Positions 22,234-32,857 of a DNA stretch of 64,000 bases are shown piece after piece. The translations under genes and the position numbers were made by a program. The notes under the pieces are model-generated. The model made no database searches, was not told where the DNA came from, and saw nothing but the letters and a program-made list of their open reading frames with translations. How positions within the stretch are numbered: the stretch's first letter is position 1; every line of letters begins with the position of its first letter. The stretch is from Prauserella isguenensis (lineage in GTDB: Bacteria > Actinomycetota > Actinomycetes > Mycobacteriales > Pseudonocardiaceae): the NCBI RefSeq assembly GCF_014191605.1, contig NZ_JACHWU010000001.1, positions 1,426,001 through 1,490,000 on the forward strand, in the 5' to 3' direction.

Positions 22234-23136
22234 ATGCCCGCGCAACAGGTGCAATGGGACACTCTGCGGGTGGCCTGCCGATTGCAGTTGATCTACACCG
22301 AGGACGTCGGGGACCCCCGGCTCGACGAGTTCCGCGACCTCACGACCGCCGACCGCAGGCCGGACCGGCCGGGTGGGCGCGGGCTCGTGATCGCGGAGGG
22401 AACCGTCGTGGTGCGCAGGCTCGTCGAGTCGCCGTATCCGGTGCGGGCGCTGCTCGGCGTGGAGCGGCGGATCGAGGAGCTGGAACCCGACCTCGCCGGC
22501 CTCGACGTGCCCGCGTACGTCACGTCGGCCGACGTGATGGCGGGGGTCGTGGGCTTCCACCTCAACCGGGGCGTGCTCGCCACCGCGGACAAGGCGCCGC
22601 AGCCGTCGGTCGCCGACCTCGTCCGCGACGCGCGGGTGATCGCCGTGCTCGAAGGCGTCGGCGACCACGAGAACCTCGGCGCGCTGTTCCGCAACGCCGC
22701 CGCGCTCGGCGTCGACAGTGTGCTGCTCGGCCCGGGCTGTTCCGACCCGCTGTACCGCCGCAGCGTGCGCGTCTCGATGGGGCACGTGCTGCGGGTGCCG
22801 TTCGCCGTCGCGAGCGGGCCTGCCGAGTGGAAGGCCGCCCTGGACGTCGTGCGGGAGGCCGGGTTCCGGCTGGCCGCGCTGACGCCGCGGCCCGGTTCCG
22901 TGCCGCTGTGGGAGGCCGCGGGGGACGAGAAGGTGGCGCTCATGCTGGGATCGGAGGGACACGGCCTCTCCGACGAGGCGCTCGCCGCGGCCGACGTCGC
23001 CGTGTCGGTACCGATGGCCGACGGGGTCGACTCACTCAACGTCGCGACGACCGGCGCGGTGGCGTTCTACGAACTCACCCGGCGCAGAGAAGGGGCCGCG
23101 GGCTGGGAAGGAGCGGTCGCGGATGCACGGCGCTGA
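22234..23136 (+). CDS. TrmH/SpoU family RNA 2'-O-ribose methyltransferase
   Basis: A 300-residue SPOUT enzyme. Residues 35-110 form the substrate-binding domain (RGLVIAEGTVVVRRLVESP), and the C-terminal knot has motif 1 GVGDHENLGALFRNAAALG, motif 2 LMLGSEGHGLSDE and motif 3 VSVPMADGVDSLNVATTGAV. Motif 1 Arg and the motif 3 Asn are the catalytic and AdoMet-site residues. It should methylate a ribose 2'-OH in rRNA or tRNA. ATG 22234 has GGAG 5 nt upstream; GTG 22270 is an alternative. It overlaps DUF2537 by 14 nt. Positional equivalent of Rv0881. Confidence 0.92.
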   Translation: MPAQQVQWDTLRVACRLQLIYTEDVGDPRLDEFRDLTTADRRPDRPGGRGLVIAEGTVVVRRLVESPYPVRALLGVERRIEELEPDLAGLDVPAYVTSADVMAGVVGFHLNRGVLATADKAPQPSVADLVRDARVIAVLEGVGDHENLGALFRNAAALGVDSVLLGPGCSDPLYRRSVRVSMGHVLRVPFAVASGPAEWKAALDVVREAGFRLAALTPRPGSVPLWEAAGDEKVALMLGSEGHGLSDEALAAADVAVSVPMADGVDSLNVATTGAVAFYELTRRREGAAGWEGAVADARR

Positions 23137-23932
23137 GCTGCAACTCGACGTACGCGGCGATCGCGCCGTGCTGACGGGCACGGGCGGCCGCGAGGCCGAT
23201 CCCGCCGCGTTCTCCCTCGGTGACGAGCTGACCGACGCGCTGCACGAGTGGGCGCGCGTGTCCGCAGTGGTGGGCGTGGGCGGTTCCCGCGCCGTCGACC
23301 CGGGCGGCGTTGACGCGGGTGCCGTTGAACCGGGCGGCGTTAGACCGGGCGGTGTTGACCCGGACGGTGTCGACCCGGGCGCCGTAGAACCGGGCGGCGT
23401 TGACCCGGGCCGCAGGGGTGAGGGTGACGCCGGCGGCGCGGCGGTCGTCGCGCACCGTGGCAGGCAGCTCGCGGGACGTGTCGCGGCGGCTCTCGGGGTG
23501 ACGGTGAGCTACCGCGACCCGGTCGCGGCCCGGACGTTCGTCGCTGTGCCGCCCGCCGACGAGGGCGAACCCGACTCCGGCGCGGCCGAGGCCGTGGCGG
23601 GCTCGGGCCGTGAGCACGGCCGGTTCGACGCGCTCGCCGAGTGGTGGCGGGTGCAGGCGGAGCGGAACCCGGGCCCGGTCCCCTGGGGAACCGGCGTACT
23701 GGTCGCGGTGTTCTTCGCCGTCGTGATGATCGCGGCGATGCTCGCGTTGGCCGGTGCGCTGGCCTCGGCGACGCACGGGCTCGTGGCGGTCGTGGCGGCG
23801 CTCGTGGTGAGCGCGGGCCTCGCGCCGTCGTTGTGGCTGGGCAGGCACGTCCCCGTGGTGCGCTGGATCGTCGGCGGGGTGGCGACCGGCATCGCGCTCT
23901 CGTGGATCGGCGTCCTCGTCAACGTCCTCTGA
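23123..23932 (+). CDS. DUF2537 membrane protein with internal pentapeptide repeats
   Basis: A 269-residue protein. The N-terminal 50 residues (MHGAELQLDVRGDRAVLTGT) form a small soluble region; residues 57-98 are eight tandem pentapeptides of type D/E-P-G-G-V; after RRGEGDAGG comes another soluble stretch; residues 190-265 hold three to four TM helices (GVLVAVFFAVVMIAAMLALA, GLVAVVAALVVSAGLAP, WIVGGVATGIALSWIGVLV), the DUF2537 part. The gene overlaps the methyltransferase by 14 nt. It corresponds to Rv0882, which as I recall is much shorter, so the repeat insertion is a local expansion. Confidence 0.8.
   Translation: MHGAELQLDVRGDRAVLTGTGGREADPAAFSLGDELTDALHEWARVSAVVGVGGSRAVDPGGVDAGAVEPGGVRPGGVDPDGVDPGAVEPGGVDPGRRGEGDAGGAAVVAHRGRQLAGRVAAALGVTVSYRDPVAARTFVAVPPADEGEPDSGAAEAVAGSGREHGRFDALAEWWRVQAERNPGPVPWGTGVLVAVFFAVVMIAAMLALAGALASATHGLVAVVAALVVSAGLAPSLWLGRHVPVVRWIVGGVATGIALSWIGVLVNVL
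23291..23412 (+). repeat. In-frame 15-bp tandem repeat inside the DUF2537 gene
   Basis: About eight degenerate copies of a 15-nt unit resembling GTTGACCCGGGCGGC, coding for pentapeptides such as DPGGV, DAGAV, EPGGV and RPGGV. The reading frame is kept, so it is a coding expansion and not intergenic sequence. Confidence 0.85.
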
Positions 23933-24167: not shown

Positions 24168-25109
24168 ATGGCTTCGTCGAATCCTCAAGACGTGTGCAAC
24201 GTCGTCGTCACCGGTGGCAGCGGTTTCATCGGACGCGCGGTCGTCGCGAAGTTCCGCGAACGCGGCGCGCGGGTCACGGTCATCGACAGGGAACCGTCCC
24301 CGTACCCCGACGACGAGGGTGTCGTCCACGTCCAGGGTGACCTGAAGGACGCCGCCGTGCGCGAGCGGGCGATCAAGCCCGGTGTCGACGGCATCATCCA
24401 CCTCGCCGCGATCACGTCGGTGCTCAAGTCGGTCGAGATGCCGGCGGAGACGTACGCCGAGAACGTCGCGATCACCCACGAGCTGCTCGAACTCGCCCGG
24501 ATCAACGAGGTGCCGAGGTTCATCCTCGCCTCGACGAACGCCGTCGTCGGCGACGTCGGCACGGCCACGATCAACCCGGACCTGCCGCTCGCCCCGCTCA
24601 CGCCGTACGGCGCGACGAAGGCCGCCTGCGAGATGCTCATGTCGGGCTACGCGGGTGCCTACGGAGTCACGACGACGGCGCTGCGGTTCACCAACGTCTA
24701 CGGCCCGGGCATGTCGCACAAGGACAGCTTCATCCCGCGCCTGATGCGTGCCGCCCTGGCGGGTGAGGGTGTGAAGGTCTACGGCGACGGTCAGCAGAAG
24801 CGTGACCTCGTCTTCCTCGACGACATCGTCTCCGGCATCACGGGTGCGTGGGACACGCAGTACGTCGGACGTGCGATCCTCGGCGGCGGCAGGTCGGTGT
24901 CGGTGCTGGACATGATCGACGGCGTGCGGGCGGTGACGGGTGCCGAGCTCCCGGTCGAACACGTGCCGGCACCGGGCGGTGAGATGCCGGCCGTGATCGT
25001 CGACATCTCGGGTAGCGCTGACACGATCGGGTACACCCCGTCGTACGACCTCAAGTCCGGGCTCGCCGCGACCTGGGAGTACTTCCAGAAGGCCGCAGCC
25101 ACGGGCTGA
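24168..25109 (+). CDS. NAD-dependent sugar epimerase/dehydratase (extended SDR)
   Basis: A 313-residue nucleotide-sugar enzyme. The Rossmann motif is TGGSGFIGRAVV (residues 15-26); HLAAITSVLKSVEMP and the catalytic YGATK near residue 148 follow, then LRFTNVYGPGMSHKDSFIPR, which is typical of UDP-glucose 4-epimerase-like proteins. ATG 24168 is the first Met before conserved sequence. The gene is 42 bp before a giant glycosyltransferase fusion on the same strand and 3.7 kb from a UDP-sulfoquinovose synthase, so it likely supplies a UDP-sugar to the same pathway. Exact sugar product unknown. Confidence 0.9.
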   Translation: MASSNPQDVCNVVVTGGSGFIGRAVVAKFRERGARVTVIDREPSPYPDDEGVVHVQGDLKDAAVRERAIKPGVDGIIHLAAITSVLKSVEMPAETYAENVAITHELLELARINEVPRFILASTNAVVGDVGTATINPDLPLAPLTPYGATKAACEMLMSGYAGAYGVTTTALRFTNVYGPGMSHKDSFIPRLMRAALAGEGVKVYGDGQQKRDLVFLDDIVSGITGAWDTQYVGRAILGGGRSVSVLDMIDGVRAVTGAELPVEHVPAPGGEMPAVIVDISGSADTIGYTPSYDLKSGLAATWEYFQKAAATG

Positions 25110-25151
25110 GCCGCCACCCGCCGAGTCGACCGACGAGAGAGACCGCCGAGA

Positions 25152-27425
25152 GTGTCCACCTTTCTCCGCCGTCACTGGTTGCTGCTGTTGCTACTGGCCG
25201 GCGGCGTGGCCCTGCGTGTCGTGACCTGGCTGGCGTACCAGCCGGCACTGCTCTACATCGACACGTTCCGCTACCTGGGCAACCTGGAGGAACTGCGGCC
25301 GACGGATCTCAACCCGCTCGGGTACACACTCCTGCTCAAGTTCTTGCTCGAGTTCGGCGGGTTCGCGTGGGTGCAGGCCGCCCAGCACGCCATGGGCATC
25401 CTGCTGGCACTGGTGCTGTACCGGTTGGCGATGCGCTACACCGAGCGCGGCTGGCTCGCGGCGATCGTGGCCGCACCGGTGCTGCTGGACGCCTACCAGC
25501 TGCAGATCGAAGCGAATCTCATGTCCGAGATCCTCTTCCAGGCGCTGCTGGTGGGCATGCTCTGGGCCCTGCTCTCGCGCGGTGAGCTGACGTGGAAGCG
25601 GGCCGCGCTCGCAGGCGCGCTGCTCGCGGGCGCGGTGCTCACCCGCACGATCGGTCTCGTCGTCGCGGTGCCGTTCGGGCTGTTCCTGCTGTTCGCGTTC
25701 GGCGGGCTGAAGACGTGGAAGACGCGTGCCGGTCGTAGGCATGTGGCGGGCAGGACGCTAGCGGGCCTGGCCGGGCTGGTGCTCGTGATGTTCGGGTACA
25801 TGTCCTACTACGCGGTCCACGCCGGCCAGTTCGGGCTCACGGGCGCCACGAACAACGTGTTGTACGGCCGCACGGCCACGTTCGCCGACTGCAGCAAGCT
25901 GTCCGACGAGGGCCTGCGGCTGATGTGCCCGGAGGAGCCCCTCGGCGAGCGCAAGTCGGTCGACTACTACACGCACTTCCAGTACGGCTCGTCGGCCTGG
26001 CCGGAGGAGCCGCTCCCGGACGAACGCGACAAGGCGACCCTGGCGCGGCAGTTCTCCTACACGGTCATCATGAACCAGCCGCTGGATCTGCTCGGCGAGG
26101 TGCTCTACGACTTCGGCAAGAACTTCGTCCCGGTCAAGGAGACGTTCCACAACGACGTCCCCGCGGAACGATGGCATTTCCAGTCGCACTACCCGTACCA
26201 CGATGTGGGGACGGAGACGCCTCAGGTGTACCAGGCGTGGACGCTCGCTTATGATGACGAGTTGCCGCACGCCGATCGGGCGCTCGCGTCCTTTATGCGT
26301 GATTATCAACAGAACGGCGGCTACACCTGGGGCCCGCTTCTCGCGGTGTTCCTGTTGTTGGGCATCCTGGGTGCGGTCGGAGTAGGAAAGGCACGCAGAT
26401 CGCCGCTGAGATCCGGTGCGTTTCTCGGCACCGGCAGCGCGCTCATCATCCTGGCGGGTTCATCCGCGTTCGAGTTCTCCTGGAGGTATCAGTTGCCTGC
26501 GCTCGTCCTGCTGCCGATCGGCGGCGTGTTGGGTCTGGCCGCGATGTTCGGAATGGGGAAGAAGCCCGCCGGAGGCGGCCGTCGTCCCAAGATGGACGAC
26601 TATCCCGACGACGTCGACACCGCGGCCGTGTCCGAGTTCCGTAGCCGGTACGGCGAAGCACCGCTCAGCCCGCTCGTGGTGGTCATCGCGGCCTACAACG
26701 AGGCCAAGGGCATCAAGCCGGTGCTGCAGAACATGCCCACCCACTGCGGTGACATCCCGGTCTCGACGCTGGTGGTCGTCGACGGTGCGACCGACGGCAC
26801 GGCCGAGATCGCGCGAGAGGCGGGCGCGTACGTCTGCGAGGCCCCGAAGAACCGCGGTCAGGGCGGCGCGCTGCGGCTGGGCTACCACCTCGCCGCCGAG
26901 TGCGGGGCCGACTGGGTCGTCACGACCGACGCCGACGGCCAGTACGACAACAACGAGCTGCCGATGCTCATGAAGCCGCTGCTCGACGGCACCGCGGACT
27001 TCGTGACGGGCTCGCGCCGCCTCGGCTCCGGCAAGTACGACAGCAGTGTCCGCTGGCTGGGCGTGCGGGTGTTCGCGTGGCTGGCGTCGATCCTGACGAT
27101 GCAGAAGATCACCGACACGTCGTTCGGCTTCCGCGCGATGCCTGCCGACCTGGGGGCGTCCGTGACGCTGCGCGAGCCGCAGTACCAGGCCTCGGAGCTG
27201 CTGCTCGGGGTCATGGCGAAGGGTGCGCGGGTGCTCGAGGTGCCGATGACCATGGAGCTGCGGAACAACGGCGCCAGCAAGAAGGGCGGGAGCATCAAGT
27301 ACGGCGCGAACTACTCGCGCGTGATGCTTGGGACCTGGCTGCGGGAGTACGTCCTCCGCGGCGGTAAGCGCAGGCCCTACGTGCGCAGGACCGCACCGCA
27401 GACCGACGAGCGCAAACCGGCCTGA
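25152..27425 (+). CDS. Membrane GT-C (ArnT/PMT-like) domain fused to GT2 polyprenyl-phosphate glycosyltransferase domain
   Basis: A 757-residue fusion. Residues 1-470 are a polytopic membrane part (LLLLLLAGGVALRVVTWLAY, then the short acidic segment YIDTFRYLGN typical of the GT-C first loop), with about ten helices and a roughly 150-residue extracytoplasmic loop containing two Cys (ADCSK, LMCPEE). After a basic linker, residues 510-757 are a GT-A GT2 domain: VVVIAAYNEAKGI, VVVDGATDGT, TDADGQYDNNE (DxD motif) and GSRRLGSGKYD, resembling dolichol-phosphate-mannose synthase. The GT2 part should charge a polyprenyl phosphate with sugar in the cytosol and the GT-C part use it outside. Start GTG 25152. 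Confidence 0.85.
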   Translation: MSTFLRRHWLLLLLLAGGVALRVVTWLAYQPALLYIDTFRYLGNLEELRPTDLNPLGYTLLLKFLLEFGGFAWVQAAQHAMGILLALVLYRLAMRYTERGWLAAIVAAPVLLDAYQLQIEANLMSEILFQALLVGMLWALLSRGELTWKRAALAGALLAGAVLTRTIGLVVAVPFGLFLLFAFGGLKTWKTRAGRRHVAGRTLAGLAGLVLVMFGYMSYYAVHAGQFGLTGATNNVLYGRTATFADCSKLSDEGLRLMCPEEPLGERKSVDYYTHFQYGSSAWPEEPLPDERDKATLARQFSYTVIMNQPLDLLGEVLYDFGKNFVPVKETFHNDVPAERWHFQSHYPYHDVGTETPQVYQAWTLAYDDELPHADRALASFMRDYQQNGGYTWGPLLAVFLLLGILGAVGVGKARRSPLRSGAFLGTGSALIILAGSSAFEFSWRYQLPALVLLPIGGVLGLAAMFGMGKKPAGGGRRPKMDDYPDDVDTAAVSEFRSRYGEAPLSPLVVVIAAYNEAKGIKPVLQNMPTHCGDIPVSTLVVVDGATDGTAEIAREAGAYVCEAPKNRGQGGALRLGYHLAAECGADWVVTTDADGQYDNNELPMLMKPLLDGTADFVTGSRRLGSGKYDSSVRWLGVRVFAWLASILTMQKITDTSFGFRAMPADLGASVTLREPQYQASELLLGVMAKGARVLEVPMTMELRNNGASKKGGSIKYGANYSRVMLGTWLREYVLRGGKRRPYVRRTAPQTDERKPA

Positions 27426-27452
27426 ACGGCCTCTAGAGGCGACGAGAACGAC

Positions 27453-27493
27453 GAGCGGCCCCTGGGACCCGGCGACGGGCCCAGGGGCCGCTC
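27453..27493 (+). terminator. Terminator after the glycosyltransferase fusion
   Basis: Perfect 14-bp stem GAGCGGCCCCTGGG / CCCAGGGGCCGCTC (27453-27466 with 27480-27493), 13-nt loop, 27 bp after the stop. Confidence 0.88.
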
Positions 27494-27955
27494 GCTGTCT
27501 TCTGGGGCCGCGTTTCCGGTTCGGCGCCGTTCGGGGACACGCAAGATGCCTACTCGGGCGTCGGGTGTCGTCGAGACAGCGGTCGCTGCGGGACCGGCCG
27601 TCGCGGACCGGTCGCTGCCGAACGGTCATCGCGGCACCGGTCGTGGCTGCATCGGGCGTCGCCGCAGCGGGCGTTGCGGCGACGCCTGGACCAGCTCGCC
27701 GGATTGCGGCCCGTCAGTGAAAATCGGATGAAATGCCGCGGTTCGCATGGCAAAAAAGCGATGTCGATCATCGGTTTCTCTTCCCGGGCGCACGCAAATC
27801 GGCCGGTGAATTGTCCACATTTTCCGGTGGGACGGACAGCGCGGGTGAATTACGAAGCGAGTCGTTTTACCGGCGTGCGAAGACAACCCGTCCGGGGGAG
27901 GCCTGCCCCAGTAGCCCCACGGAGCGGAGCCGGCGCCGAGGAGGATTCACACAGA
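27494..27955. other. 462-bp gap bounded by two strong hairpins; no supported protein gene
   Basis: The gap between convergent genes lies between the terminators at 27453-27493 and 27956-27995. Part of it, about 27715-27890, is clearly more AT-rich than the window average (for example GTGAAAATCGGATGAAATG and GGCAAAAAAGCG). Short open frames exist on both strands but none has a ribosome site, plausible codon bias or familiar sequence. It could hold a small RNA; nothing else is seen. Confidence 0.4.
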
Positions 27956-27995
27956 GTGAGGGCCCGGCCACCGGGTGCGGTGGCCGGGCCCTCAC
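27956..27995. terminator. 17-bp hairpin downstream of gtrA
   Basis: Perfect stem GTGAGGGCCCGGCCACC / GGTGGCCGGGCCCTCAC (27956-27972 with 27979-27995), 6-nt loop. It is 23 bp past the GtrA stop on the minus strand and would also stop + strand transcripts from the AT-richer gap. Confidence 0.88.
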
Positions 27996-28018
27996 ATGCT
28001 GGTCCCTCGAGGTTCTCG

Positions 28019-28657
28019 TCAGGCGAGTTCCGTCGGTCGGGCCTGCTCCTTGGCCGGTTCCACCGGTTCGGCCGCTTCAGCCTGTTCGACCTGTTCCGCC
28101 TGTTCGACCTGTTCGGCCTTCGCGGCCTCCGGGGCGATGAGCTTGCTGAAGACGAAGCGGTCGAGCAGCGCGAACTTGATGAGAAAGACCAGCGCATAGC
28201 TGCTCAGGAAGGCCACGTCGAGCACGATGACGCGCACGAAGCCTTCGATCCGGAGCGGCTCGGTGATCCAGCCGGCAATCGTCGTGAGGGTCATCGAGGC
28301 GATGCCACCCAGGGCGATCACGAACAGGTAGGGCAGCAGCTCACGCTTGACGTCCGGCTTGCCTCGGCGGTTCCACGCCCAGCGACGGGCGACGAAGTAG
28401 TTGGGGACCGCCCCCGCCACGAACGCGATGGCGCTCGCGGACGTGGGGTTCATGTCCATCGTGAGCAGCACGATCAGTGTCACCTGGCTCGTGCAGGTGG
28501 CCAGGCCCGAGCTCATCAGCGCGCGGACCAGACGTGCGACGAACTTCGGCTGGCCCGGGCGTTGATCCGGGTCGTCAGTCGAGTCCTGCTGGTCGGCGGT
28601 GTTCTGCCCTGCGGAAACAGTCGTCACGCCCCCTATTGTGCCAACCGCCTTTCTCAT
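28019..28657 (-). CDS. GtrA family membrane protein (polyprenyl-linked sugar flippase-like)
   Basis: A 212-residue protein with a polar N-terminus of about 40 residues, then four TM helices in residues 42-165 including FVAGAVPNYFVARRWAWNRR, the typical GtrA signature, and a C-terminal Glu/Ala/Val-rich tail with VEQAEQ repeats. GtrA proteins are proposed to move polyprenyl-phosphate-linked sugars across the membrane or to assist the GT2 enzymes that make them. ATG 28657 or GTG 28627 can be the start; neither has an ideal ribosome site. It is divergent from the UDP-sulfoquinovose synthase gene (127 bp apart). Confidence 0.88.
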   Translation of the reverse strand: MRKAVGTIGGVTTVSAGQNTADQQDSTDDPDQRPGQPKFVARLVRALMSSGLATCTSQVTLIVLLTMDMNPTSASAIAFVAGAVPNYFVARRWAWNRRGKPDVKRELLPYLFVIALGGIASMTLTTIAGWITEPLRIEGFVRVIVLDVAFLSSYALVFLIKFALLDRFVFSKLIAPEAAKAEQVEQAEQVEQAEAAEPVEPAKEQARPTELA

Positions 28658-28784
28658 CCGTGCGGCGACATCCCTATTCTTGCTTCGTGGGTTGAGATCA
28701 GCCCGTTACTAAGACAATGTGAACCGGCTGGTTCGGGTGCAGTGCCGGGCCGTGTGGCTCAGGCGACAGGAGGAACGAAAACAC

Positions 28785-29984
28785 ATGCGAGTACTGGTTC
28801 TTGGCGGCGACGGCTTCTGCGGATGGCCGACCTCCCTGCACCTGTCTGCGCAGGGGCACGAGGTCGCCATTGTCGACAACCTCTCGCGGAGGAAGATCGA
28901 CATCGAGCTCGAGGCCGAGTCGCTGACGCCGATCCGCCCGATGGGCGAGCGTCTGAAGGCCTGGAAGGAGGCCACGGGCAAGGACATCGCGTTCCACAAC
29001 CTCGATGTCTCGCAGAACTACCAGCGCTTGCTCGACCTGATCCTCGAGTTCCGCCCGGACGCCATCGTGCACTTCGCCGAGCAGCGTGCCGCGCCGTACT
29101 CGATGAAGAGCAGCTGGCACAAGCGCTACACCGTGGACAACAACATGGGTGCCACGAACAACGTGTTGGCCGCGGTGGTCGAGAGCGGGCTCGACATCCA
29201 CATCGCGCACCTCGGCACGATGGGTGTCTACGGCTACGGCACGGCCGGGATGAAGATCCCGGAGGGCTACCTCAAGGTCAAGATCGACACCGGTAACGGT
29301 GAGCTGGTCGACCAGGAGATCCTGTACCCGGCCAACCCGGGCAGCATCTACCACATGACGAAGACGCAGGACCAGCTGCTCTTCTACTTCTACAACAAGA
29401 ACGACAAGATCCGGGTCACGGACCTGCACCAGGGCATCGTGTGGGGCACGCAGACCAACGACACGCAGCTGGACGAGCGCCTGATCAACCGCTTCGACTA
29501 CGACGGCGACTACGGCACGGTGCTCAACCGGTTCCTGATGCAGGCGGGCGTCGACTACCCGCTGACCGTGCACGGCACGGGCGGCCAGACGCGCGCGTTC
29601 ATCCACATCCAGGACACGGTCAAGTGCATCGAGCTGGCGATCTCCAACCCGCCCGAGAAGGGTGAGCGGGTGCAGATCCTGAACCAGATGACCGAGACCC
29701 ACCGGGTCCGGGACCTGGCTCAGATGATCGCCGACAAGACCGGCGCGAGGGTCGAGAACGTCGAGAACCCGCGTAACGAGGCCGACGAGAACGACCTCCA
29801 CGTGGTCAACGACCGCTTCCTGCACCTGGGCCTCAACCCGATCACCCTCAACGAGGGCCTGATGACCGAGGTCACCGACATCACGAAGAAGTACGCCGAG
29901 CGCTGCGACACCTCGCGCATCCCGTGTGTGTCGACGTGGACCGGCGACAAGTCGGACCGGGTCGGTACGCCGAAGAGCGTCTGA
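28785..29984 (+). CDS. sqdB: UDP-sulfoquinovose synthase (SQD1/SqdB family)
   Basis: A 399-residue extended SDR that should make UDP-sulfoquinovose from UDP-glucose and sulfite. It keeps the SQD1 signatures: GGDGFCGWPTSLHL (7-20), VDNLSRRKIDIELEAESLTP, the loop EQRAAPYSM (99-107) specific to SQD1, LGTMGVYG with the catalytic Thr at 145, Y189-x-x-x-K193 in YHMTK, DLHQGIVWG and the Q-T-R segment GGQTRAFIHI. Length fits plant and cyanobacterial enzymes. ATG 28785 has AGGAGG 11 nt upstream. No SqdX/SQD2-type glycosyltransferase is present, so the sulfosugar may go to a polyprenyl carrier or glycan and not to diacylglycerol. Agl3 of Sulfolobus is a precedent. Confidence 0.9.
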   Translation: MRVLVLGGDGFCGWPTSLHLSAQGHEVAIVDNLSRRKIDIELEAESLTPIRPMGERLKAWKEATGKDIAFHNLDVSQNYQRLLDLILEFRPDAIVHFAEQRAAPYSMKSSWHKRYTVDNNMGATNNVLAAVVESGLDIHIAHLGTMGVYGYGTAGMKIPEGYLKVKIDTGNGELVDQEILYPANPGSIYHMTKTQDQLLFYFYNKNDKIRVTDLHQGIVWGTQTNDTQLDERLINRFDYDGDYGTVLNRFLMQAGVDYPLTVHGTGGQTRAFIHIQDTVKCIELAISNPPEKGERVQILNQMTETHRVRDLAQMIADKTGARVENVENPRNEADENDLHVVNDRFLHLGLNPITLNEGLMTEVTDITKKYAERCDTSRIPCVSTWTGDKSDRVGTPKSV

Positions 29985-30098: not shown

Positions 30099-31091
30099 TC
30101 AGCCGCGTTGGCTGCGGACGCCCAGCAGGACGTCCTCCCAGGCGGGCACGGGTGTGTGGCCGCCCCGGCGTTTCGGCCTCGGCTTGCCGGGGCCCGAACC
30201 CGCGTCGGAACCGGGGGCGGCCTGGCCCGCCGCGGGAGCAGGGCGGGCGTCCTCGTCGTCGGTTCCGCGGCCGTCGATCCCGTTCCTGCCGGTGTCGGAC
30301 GCCGTGTCGTCCGCCTGCGGTTCGTCGACGGGCAGCGGTGCCTCGATGACATTGCTCGCCGTTTCGCCCTGCCCGTCGGGCTCGTCGAACTCCGGGCAGT
30401 CGAACAGCACGGGTTCGAGCTCCTCCGCGGGGACCCCGGGGCGCTCGTGCTCCGTGTGCTCCTCGGCGGCTGCTCGCTCGGTGAGGTCGGTGACGGCACG
30501 GGGCGTGCGGAACGACGTCGGGTCGAGGAGCGAGGCGGCAAGGTCGTCGATCGCGGTCACGGTGCCGCCGTGCATGCCGGGGGTGAACGTCCAGTGGGCA
30601 CGGTTGGACGAACGGCCCGCCGACCAGCGCAGGCAGACGACCCAGTTGCCGTCGTCACCGCGCCAGGCGTCCCATTCGGCCTGGGAGAAGTCGTGGCCGC
30701 GCACGCCGAAGGCGTGGGCGACGACCTCGGAGAGGGTCTGCACGTCCGGACCGTCGTCGCGCACGGGGTGCGCCTGTTGGGCCAGGTCGGCGTGCCGGGA
30801 GCGTTCGAGCAGCACGGGGTAGGCGAACCGCTCGACGCGGTCGGTCGGGACTCCCGAGGCGGTCGCGACCTGCTCGACCGTCTCGCCCGCGCGGATCCGG
30901 GCTTGGATTTCGCGTGGTCGCATCTGGGCCTCCAGCTCGATCTCGATCTGGCCGAGGCGGGTGAGATCCCCGCGGGCGGCCGCGCGCAGCCGCTCGTCCG
31001 CGGGCAGGACGAACCGCTCACGGCGCTCGGGGTCCTCGCACACGATGGACTCGCCGTCCTCGTGTAACCCGACCACCCGTAGCGTTCGCAT
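30099..31091 (-). CDS. sepH: Septation protein SepH (DUF3071)
   Basis: A 330-residue cytosolic protein. The N-terminal domain (MRTLRVVGLHEDGESIVCED, RFVLPADERLRAA) with an HTH-like segment RPREIQARIRAGETVEQVA near residue 65-83 is the conserved SepH domain, which in Streptomyces and mycobacteria binds FtsZ and stimulates its assembly. A second conserved stretch is WRGDDGNWVVCLRW near residue 155. The C-terminal half is disordered, acidic, and ends with a conserved basic/aromatic motif (RGGHTPVPAWEDVLLGVR). ATG 31091 has GGGAGG 5 nt upstream. It sits next to serC in the same context as Rv0883c-Rv0884c. Confidence 0.93.
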   Translation of the reverse strand: MRTLRVVGLHEDGESIVCEDPERRERFVLPADERLRAAARGDLTRLGQIEIELEAQMRPREIQARIRAGETVEQVATASGVPTDRVERFAYPVLLERSRHADLAQQAHPVRDDGPDVQTLSEVVAHAFGVRGHDFSQAEWDAWRGDDGNWVVCLRWSAGRSSNRAHWTFTPGMHGGTVTAIDDLAASLLDPTSFRTPRAVTDLTERAAAEEHTEHERPGVPAEELEPVLFDCPEFDEPDGQGETASNVIEAPLPVDEPQADDTASDTGRNGIDGRGTDDEDARPAPAAGQAAPGSDAGSGPGKPRPKRRGGHTPVPAWEDVLLGVRSQRG

Positions 31092-31317
31092 TCCGCCTCC
31101 CATGCGCGTTCACGTTCCTTGCCGGCCAACGTTAGAGCGGCGCGTCGACTTGACGACGCAGGCGCGCCGAGTCACGGCGAGATCACGCCCACGTCCGACC
31201 CTTGCGCACCGGAAGGCCGGCATGTTCGATGATCACTCGGTCGGACTAGTACAACTCGGAGACGAGGGCCGGCGCCCCATTGGTGCCGGTCGCTGGGGGA
31301 AGAAACGGATACGCGAG

Positions 31318-31425
31318 ATGAGCGAGACACGAGTCAGCAGGCGCCGGTTCTTCAGAGGTGCGGGCGTCGCAGGCACCGTCGCTGCGGTTCCCCTGATCAG
31401 CGGGTACGTCGGTTACCGGATTCCG
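31318..31425 (+). pseudogene. Tat signal peptide out of frame with the downstream arylsulfotransferase gene
   Basis: From ATG 31318 one frame reads MSETRVSRRRFFRGAGVAGT, then AAVPLISGYVGYR: a clear twin-arginine signal (SRRRFF) with hydrophobic core. The arylsulfotransferase domain continues in the next frame (+1) from about 31427 (QSKPEPEVLPPPK). In that frame a TGA at 31394-31396 blocks any upstream extension. Dropping one C from the CC at 31423-31424 would join GYVGYRI with RQSKPEP. Either a real frameshift, a sequencing error, or the mature protein now starts at GTG 31448 without export. Confidence 0.6.
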
Positions 31426-31447
31426 GCAGTCGAAGCCCGAGCCGGAG

Positions 31448-32857
31448 GTGCTGCCTCCGCCCAAGGCGGAGGAGGTGCACACCTTCTACTCGCGGCCCGA
31501 TCTGCGTCCGCCGAAGATCAAGATGTCGGACGCCGACCCGGACACGGCGCCGCAGGCCAGTCCGCGGCATCTGTTCCTCGGGGTGAAGGACTACCAGGGT
31601 GAGGGTGCCGGTCAGGCGGGCATGCTCATCGTCAACCGCCGCGGTGAGCCCGTGTGGTTCGCAGTACGCGACAGGGACGACCAGAAGCCGATGGACTTCC
31701 GGATGCAGACCTACCGCGGCCGGCCCGTCCTGACGACCTGGCAGGGCGTGGCACCCATCGGGTTCGGCAAGGGCAAGTGCCTGGTCTTCGACCAGAGCTA
31801 CCGGCAGATCGCCGAGGTCGACACCGGAGACGGGGTCGCGGACGCGGACCTGCACGAGTTCCTCATCACCGACCGCGACACCGCGTTGATCATGGCCTAC
31901 AACCCGGTGCAGCGGGACCTGAGCGCCGTCGGCGGACCGTCGGACGGCTGGGTGTCGGACGGCGTGATCCAGGAGATCGACATCGAGACCGGCGAGGTGC
32001 TGTTCGACTGGCACAGCCTCGACCACGTCGACCTGGCCGAGTCGCAGCTTCCCGTGGAGGGACAGGGCATGAAGGAGCACCCGTACGACTACATCCACCT
32101 GAACTCGATCGGACTGGACGACGACGGCGACCTGCTCGTCTCCGCGCGCAACACGTGGGCGATCTACAAGATCGCGAAATCCGACGGCTCCGTGCGATGG
32201 ACGCTGGGCGGCAAGAACACCGACTTCCGCCTCGGCAAGGGCGTCGAGTTCGCCTGGCAGCACGACGCGCGCAGGCAGCCCGACGGCACCCTGTCGCTGT
32301 TCGACAACGCCTCGTCGCCCCCGCAGGCCAACCGTTCGCGCGGCTTGGTCCTCCAGCTCGACGAGGACGCGATGACCGCGACCGTCGACCGGGAGTACGT
32401 GCACCCGGCCGGCCTGCTCTGCGACAACCAGGGCAACCTGCAGCTTCTCGACGACGGGCGCGCGATCGTCGGCTGGGGATGTCAGCCCTACACCTCGGAG
32501 TTCGACGCCGACGGCGAGTGGCTCACCGACTGGCGCTCCCCGGAGTTCGTCCAGTCCTACCGGGCCTACCTGGGCGACTGGGTCGGCAGGCCGGACGACA
32601 AGCCGGCGCTGGCGGTGCGGAAGAACGCCGCCCGCGGCGTGCTGGTCTACGCGAGCTGGAACGGTGCGACCGAGGTCAAGCGCTGGCGCGTGCTCGCGGG
32701 CAAGCGTGCCGACGACCTCTCGGAGGCGGTCACCGTGCCGCGGGGCGGATTCGAGACGGCGATCTCGTGCGACGCGGCGGGCCCGTTCTTCGCCGTCGAG
32801 GCCCTGGACAAGCAGGGCAACGAGCTCGGCAGGTCCGAACCGGTCCGCGGCCGCTGA
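31448..32857 (+). CDS. Arylsulfotransferase (ASST) family protein, beta-propeller
   Basis: A 469-residue open frame from GTG 31448 (LPPPKAEEVHTFYSRPDL). The body shows the arylsulfotransferase_2 pattern: MLIVNRRGEPVWFAVRDRD, VLTTWQGVAP, VIQEIDIETGEVLFDWHSLD, then YDYIHLNSIGLDDDGDLLVS with the conserved His, WTLGGKNTDF, FAWQHDARRQPDGTLSLFDN and WGCQPYTSEFDADG. Classical ASSTs transfer sulfate between phenols through a His; many actinobacterial relatives are uncharacterised. A Tat signal is present just upstream in another frame, so the intended protein is probably exported. Lies between sepH and serC; convergent with serC. Confidence 0.82.
   Translation: MLPPPKAEEVHTFYSRPDLRPPKIKMSDADPDTAPQASPRHLFLGVKDYQGEGAGQAGMLIVNRRGEPVWFAVRDRDDQKPMDFRMQTYRGRPVLTTWQGVAPIGFGKGKCLVFDQSYRQIAEVDTGDGVADADLHEFLITDRDTALIMAYNPVQRDLSAVGGPSDGWVSDGVIQEIDIETGEVLFDWHSLDHVDLAESQLPVEGQGMKEHPYDYIHLNSIGLDDDGDLLVSARNTWAIYKIAKSDGSVRWTLGGKNTDFRLGKGVEFAWQHDARRQPDGTLSLFDNASSPPQANRSRGLVLQLDEDAMTATVDREYVHPAGLLCDNQGNLQLLDDGRAIVGWGCQPYTSEFDADGEWLTDWRSPEFVQSYRAYLGDWVGRPDDKPALAVRKNAARGVLVYASWNGATEVKRWRVLAGKRADDLSEAVTVPRGGFETAISCDAAGPFFAVEALDKQGNELGRSEPVRGR

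Follow-up and report, generated by a model that had tools for sequence, protein, structure and literature searches.

A candidate cassette for envelope decoration with sulfoquinovose, carrying a divergent SqdB, in Prauserella isguenensis and related Pseudonocardiaceae

Sulfoquinovose (SQ) is best known as a lipid headgroup in photosynthetic membranes and as a constituent of certain archaeal N-glycans, and genes for SqdB, the synthase of uridine diphosphate (UDP)-SQ, are known in some heterotrophs. Arabinogalactan, for its part, is established in Pseudonocardiaceae, and the mycobacterial protein Rv3632 is GtrA-like. According to the accessible part of a 2026 review (PMC12890257), synthesis and degradation of SQ typically fall to different organisms, phototrophs and certain archaea making it and heterotrophic bacteria degrading it. 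The accessible parts of two other papers (PMC9671496, PMC5389812) describe the decoration of mycobacterial arabinogalactan with galactosamine (GalN) by Rv3634c, PpgS/Rv3631, Rv3632 and Rv3779, where Rv3632 assists PpgS. This work deals with a stretch of 64,000 nucleotides (the window; positions 1426001-1490000 of contig 1) within the 4.9 Mb genome, in 15 contigs, of Prauserella isguenensis. It contains four neighbouring genes, encoding a nucleotide-sugar epimerase (EPI), a fusion of a GT-C and a GT2 glycosyltransferase, a GtrA protein and an SqdB, which probably form a cassette that makes SQ, or its C4 epimer, and delivers it to the outside of the cell for decoration of the envelope.

The catalytic steps of this proposal are deduced from gene content, linkage, co-occurrence, exchange of SqdB types in place and the association of one SqdB type with cysH. 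SqdB would convert UDP-glucose and sulfite into UDP-SQ, as suggested by its family, by its swap with type I enzymes and by the cysH neighbours of its relatives. The GT2 domain, with GtrA acting either as its membrane partner or as flippase, would load SQ onto a polyprenyl-phosphate carrier, to which the protein families and the fusion point. After flipping of the carrier, SQ would pass to a putative envelope acceptor through the PMT-like GT-C domain, which belongs to the same polypeptide as GT2; candidates for the acceptor are arabinogalactan, a lipoglycan and surface proteins. EPI, in turn, may adjust the UDP-sugar pool or invert C4 of UDP-SQ. A combined polyprenyl-linked sulfosugar pathway had been proposed in the original prediction, made from the letters of the DNA; it is supported by the linkage of the genes and by the finding that the nearest GT4 of the genome does not track SqdB, its activities, carrier and acceptor staying putative.

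Co-occurrence was analysed at three levels: family (60 genomes, drawn evenly), order (150 genomes; SqdB threshold E < 1e-90) and phylum (296 genomes; GT-C threshold E 1e-20). In the family, 27 genomes have both SqdB and GT-C, one (G567) has SqdB only, two have GT-C only (G520 and G558, with weak matches of about 300 bits) and 30 have neither. SqdB is thus present in 28/60 genomes (22 of 46 genera) and GT-C in 29/60, with a Fisher p of 1.6e-13 that is descriptive, given the shared ancestry of the genomes. At the order level SqdB and GT-C are each found in 11 genomes, eight of which have both (p 5e-9), and at the phylum level the counts are 80, 15 and 13, respectively (p 1.2e-6). GT-C nearly implies SqdB, and outside the family SqdB does not imply GT-C. 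The linkage between sqdB and the glycosyltransferase genes that had been anticipated for related genomes is borne out both by the family counts and by the phylum, where SqdB occurs in 13/15 GT-C genomes vs 80/296 overall.

The physical association is also close. Within the 28 SqdB loci of the family, GT2 and GtrA are found in 23 each, EPI in 22 and GT-C in 21. Five loci (L182, L183, L198, L201 and L203) show SqdB without any of the four partners nearby, L196, a short contig, lacks EPI and GT-C, and L197 has no GT-C nearby, a GT-C piece being located at a contig end of its genome. Four genomes in which SqdB stands alone (G535, G566, G521 and G559) carry EPI, GT-C, GT2 and GtrA elsewhere (L204-L207), and no SqdB was detected in the 18-19 kb read around these separate cassettes. 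At the same thresholds, 18 cassette-free sepH loci read for synteny contained none of the five genes (GT-C and GT2 counted separately); six of their genomes have SqdB elsewhere. These distributions bear on the idea that the sugar transferred by the cassette is an ordinary one, like the GalN of PpgS, Rv3632 and Rv3779, and that SqdB has another purpose and is co-inherited by chance. EPI indeed resembles UDP-sugar 4-epimerases, there are GT-C paralogues that lack SqdB, and the same four types of protein serve the mycobacterial GalN pathway, as far as the accessible parts of PMC9671496 and PMC5389812 describe it. Nevertheless, cassette and SqdB co-occur almost one to one in the family, even where SqdB stands away from the cassette, and the association recurs across the wider phylum, which makes this explanation very unlikely.

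Some arrangements of other lineages deserve mention. In L036, a cassette of SqdB, GtrA and GT2 with a membrane protein of the DUF2142 family is embedded in a gene cluster for flagellar export, with flhB on one side and flhA on the other; outside the family, the position of GT-C may hold another membrane protein, as it does here. A flagellar role was not retained, L036 being a single case. In the Rubrobacter group (L059, L069 and L082), type II SqdB is followed by a cassette-type GT2, and L069 has in addition a protein without Pfam match; this arrangement may be a deep variant of the cassette.

Regarding the SqdB protein itself, the window enzyme, the only SqdB match in its genome, is close to those of Saccharomonospora sp. 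CUA-673 (94% identity) and Prauserella rugosa (93%), and it matches the SQD1 structure 1qrr with E 2.3e-95 and the NCBIfam model NF041015 with E 1.7e-103. The AlphaFold model (predicted local distance difference test, pLDDT, 78; predicted template modelling score, pTM, 0.83) has SQD1 as top structural match (template modelling score 0.87, E 5e-38), the next family following at E 3e-18; the model is uncertain within the active-site loop (residues 147-160). In the alignments, the catalytic Thr, the Tyr-xxx-Lys pair and the [ST]MG motif of UDP-SQ synthases (PMC8987622) are kept, with T145, M146, G147, Y189 and K193 invariant. The accessible part of the study on the archaeal enzyme Agl3 (PMC4388408) reports from mutants that His95, Arg101 and Met145 are required for activity, that Ala mutants of the loop residues Glu and Tyr (E147/Y148) are strongly impaired and that the triad mutant T144A retains full activity. 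The equivalents of the first three residues are invariant in the alignment (H96, R101 and M146), and type II SqdB retains the His, Arg, Met, Tyr and Lys critical in Agl3.

On its sequence, the window enzyme is a divergent SqdB, here called type II. The window enzyme and its relatives have the loop LGTMGVYGYG[TS] where SQD1 has LGTMGEYGT. Types were set by this motif in 135 SqdB loci, with 100 type II, 32 type I and three unassigned; the set is non-random, 80 loci having been drawn by a type II query, and the same species may appear twice. In the family sample, type I is found in 22/28 loci and type II in 6/28. Identity between the types is 43-47% (43-46% between the type I enzymes of cassettes and the window enzyme), and in the SqdB tree a long branch of approximately 4 changes per column parts them, Arabidopsis SQD1 falling on the type I side. 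The identification as an SQD1-type enzyme made in the original prediction stands as regards homology and fold, and is qualified by the divergent type and by a loop without the Glu critical in Agl3. As a side observation, SqdB of L149, in an order-level relative (G472), matches only from about residue 158 and looks truncated, with a lipid-type GT4 directly after it.

The sepH site provides the best available evidence that the two types have the same function. In two sister genera (L161 and L162), the cassette occupies the same sepH site with a type I SqdB. Identity of these loci to the window is 75-79% for GT2, 62% for GT-C, 76-77% for EPI and 52-59% for GtrA, vs 43% for SqdB, and the SqdB of a cysH-bearing proteobacterial metagenome-assembled genome (MAG; L043) is 83% identical to that of the window. 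The window group falls inside the type I cassettes in both the GT2 and the GT-C tree, and forcing the window group and L161/L162 into one SqdB clade costs 331.6 log-likelihood units (approximately unbiased, AU, test, p 6e-172). Type I and type II SqdB therefore appear to be interchangeable within the cassette, and the exchange of one for the other in an otherwise unchanged pathway suggests the same product for both. A further type II SqdB is present at the same sepH site, in opposite orientation, in G553 (L181). Two independent replacements (window group and G553) are not claimed: the tree prefers two, and a single origin is not rejected (AU p 0.126).

A second indication comes from sulfite supply. 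A gene with a PAPS_reduct domain lies within 500 bp of SqdB in 12/135 loci, all confirmed by Pfam, of which 11 are type II and the remaining one is unassigned; no type I locus of the 135 has such a gene at that distance. In frame or within 500 bp, the domain accompanies 11/100 type II loci. In L131, L133, L043 and L044 the PAPS_reduct domain comes first and SqdB second within one open frame, and these four cysH-linked loci share with the window the starred clade of 15 in the SqdB tree. The domains of L133 and L043, the two tested, score 232.9 and 245.3 bits, respectively, vs a cut-off of 154 for the NCBIfam phosphoadenylyl-sulfate reductase. Such a one-frame arrangement of a phosphoadenylyl-sulfate/adenylyl-sulfate (PAPS/APS) reductase and a type II SqdB occurs both in actinobacteria and in a proteobacterial MAG; it is possibly a sulfite-to-sugar fusion enzyme, or frames without an intervening stop. 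In G567, the family genome with SqdB and no GT-C, the type II SqdB has a CysN-like GTPase and two genes with a PAPS_reduct domain next to it, neighbours which we take to be CysN and CysD.

Both lines of evidence touch the possibility that the product of type II SqdB is a different nucleotide sugar, such as another adduct or an unsulfonated 5,6-dehydration product, which the cassette would export. The loop without Glu, the branch of approximately 4 changes per column and the identity of 43-47% between the types speak for it. However, type II occupies the place of type I in a homologous cassette at the same site, PAPS_reduct accompanies 11/100 type II loci, and the G567 enzyme has the PAPS_reduct-domain and CysN-like neighbours described above, so that another product seems improbable.

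Concerning the glycosyltransferases, the top NCBIfam relatives of the GT2 domain are DPhHxTase_Halo, PpgS and AglJ, all under their cut-offs, and its relative in the PDB is the dolichol-phosphate-mannose synthase 5mlz (E 5e-9). It is not PpgS itself, its score being 78 bits vs a cut-off of 370 for NF058614. In 23/29 loci with both, GT-C and GT2 are encoded in a single open frame, which physically ties the cytosolic step to the outer one. Asp37, Glu120, Cys247 and Cys259 of GT-C are invariant, Asp37 lying in the first predicted outer loop and the two Cys in a large predicted outer loop. An AlphaFold model of the fusion made without alignment (pLDDT 45) was not used. GtrA lies on the strand opposite to GT2 in all 23 family loci with both. 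It had been described as flippase-like; the GtrA family (PF04138) is confirmed, and by analogy with Rv3632, the assistant of PpgS, the protein (Pfam GtrA/DPMS TM) may instead be the membrane partner of GT2. By protein families, the cassette has the polyprenyl-phosphate-sugar set, namely a GT2 of the DPM (dolichol-phosphate-mannose)/PpgS type, a GtrA/DPMS TM protein and a GT-C, the last recognised through relatives.

EPI is present in 22/23 family loci with GT2, the exception being a short contig whose genome has EPI on another contig, as well as in the four cassettes standing apart from SqdB; no EPI match was found in the stretch read for some cassettes outside the family (L034, L132 and L134). 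Its active site (STNAV...PYGATK) contains Tyr-xxx-Lys, and Thr is not followed by the Asp-Glu pair of dehydratases. The nearest solved relatives are MoeE5, 4-epimerases and Bacillus cereus UGAepi (6zl6 series), and they include epimerases of sugars with a C6 carboxylate. In the alignment, from which the UGAepi residue numbers other than Arg185 were counted, Thr126-Ser-Ser of UGAepi corresponds to Thr-Asn-Ala of EPI, and Arg185 to His-Lys, where Lys is invariant in 37 cassette copies; the aligned UGAepi residues other than Arg185 are presumably carboxylate contacts. Arg185 holds the product carboxylate in the accessible part of PMC12338863. Since EPI aligns His-Lys at this carboxylate-binding position, C4 inversion of UDP-SQ by EPI would be possible, and it is tentatively suggested, as a rather doubtful option, that the exported sugar is 6-deoxy-6-sulfo-galactose on a wall polymer of Pseudonocardiaceae.

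The route that SQ takes in photosynthetic membranes was also considered, that is, synthesis of the sulfolipid sulfoquinovosyl diacylglycerol (SQDG) from UDP-SQ by a GT4 of the SqdX/SQD2 type encoded elsewhere, the glycosyltransferase genes of the cassette being bystanders. A lipid-type GT4 lies within 131 bp of SqdB in 12/135 loci, all in other lineages and with both types (nine type II, two type I and one unassigned). These adjoining GT4 proteins are taken to be SqdX, as expected of a sulfolipid route; no NCBIfam model names them so. The best GT4 match in the window genome (contig 1, 288443-289555) is 38% identical to one of them. Nevertheless, this GT4 is present in 42/60 family genomes irrespective of SqdB (19/28 SqdB-positive vs 23/32 SqdB-negative, Fisher p 0.78), and the GT-C, GT2 and GtrA genes track SqdB whereas GT4 does not. 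This GT4 was consequently dropped as a hidden SqdX, the Pfam scan found no GT4 in the cassette, and the earlier statement that an SqdX partner is missing is upheld. Sulfolipid synthesis is thus an unlikely fate of the sugar.

Several observations weigh against envelope decoration with SQ. The 346.5 bits of the window SqdB against NF041015 are under the equivalog cut-off of 575, which four type I SqdB proteins tested likewise fail (452-489 bits). The Glu-Tyr of the Agl3 loop is not matched, since type II TMGVYGY has no acid at that place and keeps Tyr. The GT-C domain of the window has no Pfam match, and a profile search of PDB sequences with GT-C gave no match (one hit, E 2.1). In an alignment of 24 GT-C members including the window, PMT (PF02366) is matched by 12 and PMT_2 by eight, so the ArnT/PMT-like nature first proposed for GT-C holds for relatives and finds no direct match in the window domain. 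At E 1e-20, 67/80 SqdB genomes of the phylum have no GT-C. Moreover, the GT-C family has members without SqdB, one of them in the window genome, and is not specific for SQ. As regards sulfite, 89/100 type II loci, the window included, have no cysH within 500 bp. Finally, none of the matches listed from open-licence literature (titles and starts of abstracts) describes SQ in the envelope of an actinomycete.

The GT-C paralogue of the window genome (contig 2, 20119-21537; L150) is 43% identical and lies beside a different GT2 and without SqdB, an arrangement also seen in two congeners; it probably serves another polyprenyl-linked sugar.

The features of the locus are collected in Table 1. The families and coordinates proposed for the four genes agree with the Pfam, NCBIfam and PDB-sequence matches. 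G+C content of the cassette genes is 64-68% vs 76% for DUF2537 and 73% for sepH.

Table 1. Features of the cassette and its flanks (positions within the window)
Feature	Position	Strand	Evidence
DUF2537 (left flank, outside cassette)	23123..23932	+	PF10801 E 2.9e-21
EPI, extended short-chain dehydrogenase/reductase (SDR), NAD-dependent nucleotide-sugar epimerase, 313 aa	24168..25109	+	Epimerase PF01370 E 1.1e-54
GT-C/GT2 fusion, single open reading frame, 757 aa	25152..27425	+	GT2 PF00535 at residues 510-632; about 8 N-terminal hydrophobic segments
GT-C (PMT-like) membrane domain of fusion	25152..26582	+	Alignment of 24, PMT/PMT_2 matches of relatives, hydropathy
GT2 domain and linker, dolichyl/polyprenyl-phosphate sugar synthase type	26583..27425	+	PF00535 E 2.4e-16; DAD motif at residue 593
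GtrA/DPMS transmembrane-domain protein	28019..28657	-	PF04138 E 1e-11
SqdB type II, SQD1-like UDP-SQ synthase homologue, 399 aa	28785..29984	+	SQD1 1qrr/1i24 E 2e-95
Type II active-site loop, SqdB residues 143-153, LGTMGVYGYGT	29211..29243	+	Alignments, motif counts; type I = LGTMGEYGT
SepH, septation protein (right flank, outside cassette)	30099..31103	-	NF040712 335 bits, above cut-off of 40

The surroundings of sepH were read in 20 of the 60 family genomes, using the first 215 residues of SepH as query. DUF2537 and sepH matches are at most about 1.3 kb apart in nine genomes, the cassette lies between them in two, other DNA in six (2-7 kb in L167, L169, L172, L173, L179 and L180), and DUF2537 was not found in three. 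The core order that the cassette had been said to interrupt is therefore real in part of the family, and the interval may be an insertion hotspot. The notion of a lineage-specific insertion does not hold: the cassette is not restricted to the window genus, SqdB adjoins sepH in 12 loci and further cassettes are located elsewhere. Past sepH (31318-32857), a Tat-type signal (SRRRFF) and an arylsulfotransferase body (PF14269) are in different reading frames, either an assembly error or a broken gene; both share one frame in L031, L032 and L041. The arylsulfotransferase was dropped as a cassette member, as among the loci scanned only the window and these three have it, and it is absent from L042, L161, L162 and L181.

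If the proposal is true, heterotrophic actinomycetes would offer a new source and a new fate for SQ, as a permanently anionic sugar of their surface. Use of SQ on the envelope via a lipid carrier is unexpected in such bacteria, and the cassette is kept across many soil actinomycetes; a homologue search with the window SqdB also showed SqdB homologues to be widespread in heterotrophs. Which residues act as acid and base in UDP-SQ synthases is given as unknown in PMC8987622, and the replacement, within the same pathway, of an enzyme that has the loop Glu by one that lacks it bears on this question and on the role of Glu. The parts are of known kinds; their combination, type II in the seat of type I and the cysH link were not seen among the open-licence literature matches listed.

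Compared with known systems, the SQD1/SqdB-SQD2/SqdX pathway shares its first enzyme, an SQD1 homologue (E 2e-95), with the cassette, which differs in having GT2, GtrA and GT-C where no SqdX partner was found, and in its type II loop. EPI resembles MoeE5 and the UDP-glucuronate 4-epimerases, which are among its nearest solved relatives. In the N-glycan system of Sulfolobus acidocaldarius, according to the accessible part of PMC4388408, the UDP-SQ synthase Agl3 feeds glycosylation on a lipid carrier and not a sulfolipid, as proposed for the cassette; however, that system is archaeal N-glycosylation, and the Agl3 loop has Glu-Tyr as in type I. The nearest worked-out analogue is the GalN decoration of mycobacterial arabinogalactan which, in the accessible parts of its description, likewise combines an SDR 4-epimerase, a GT2 loading polyprenyl phosphate, an assisting partner and an outside-acting GT-C. 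Unlike that system, the cassette adds a UDP-SQ synthase and fuses GT2 to GT-C, and its GT2 scores 78 bits vs the PpgS cut-off of 370.

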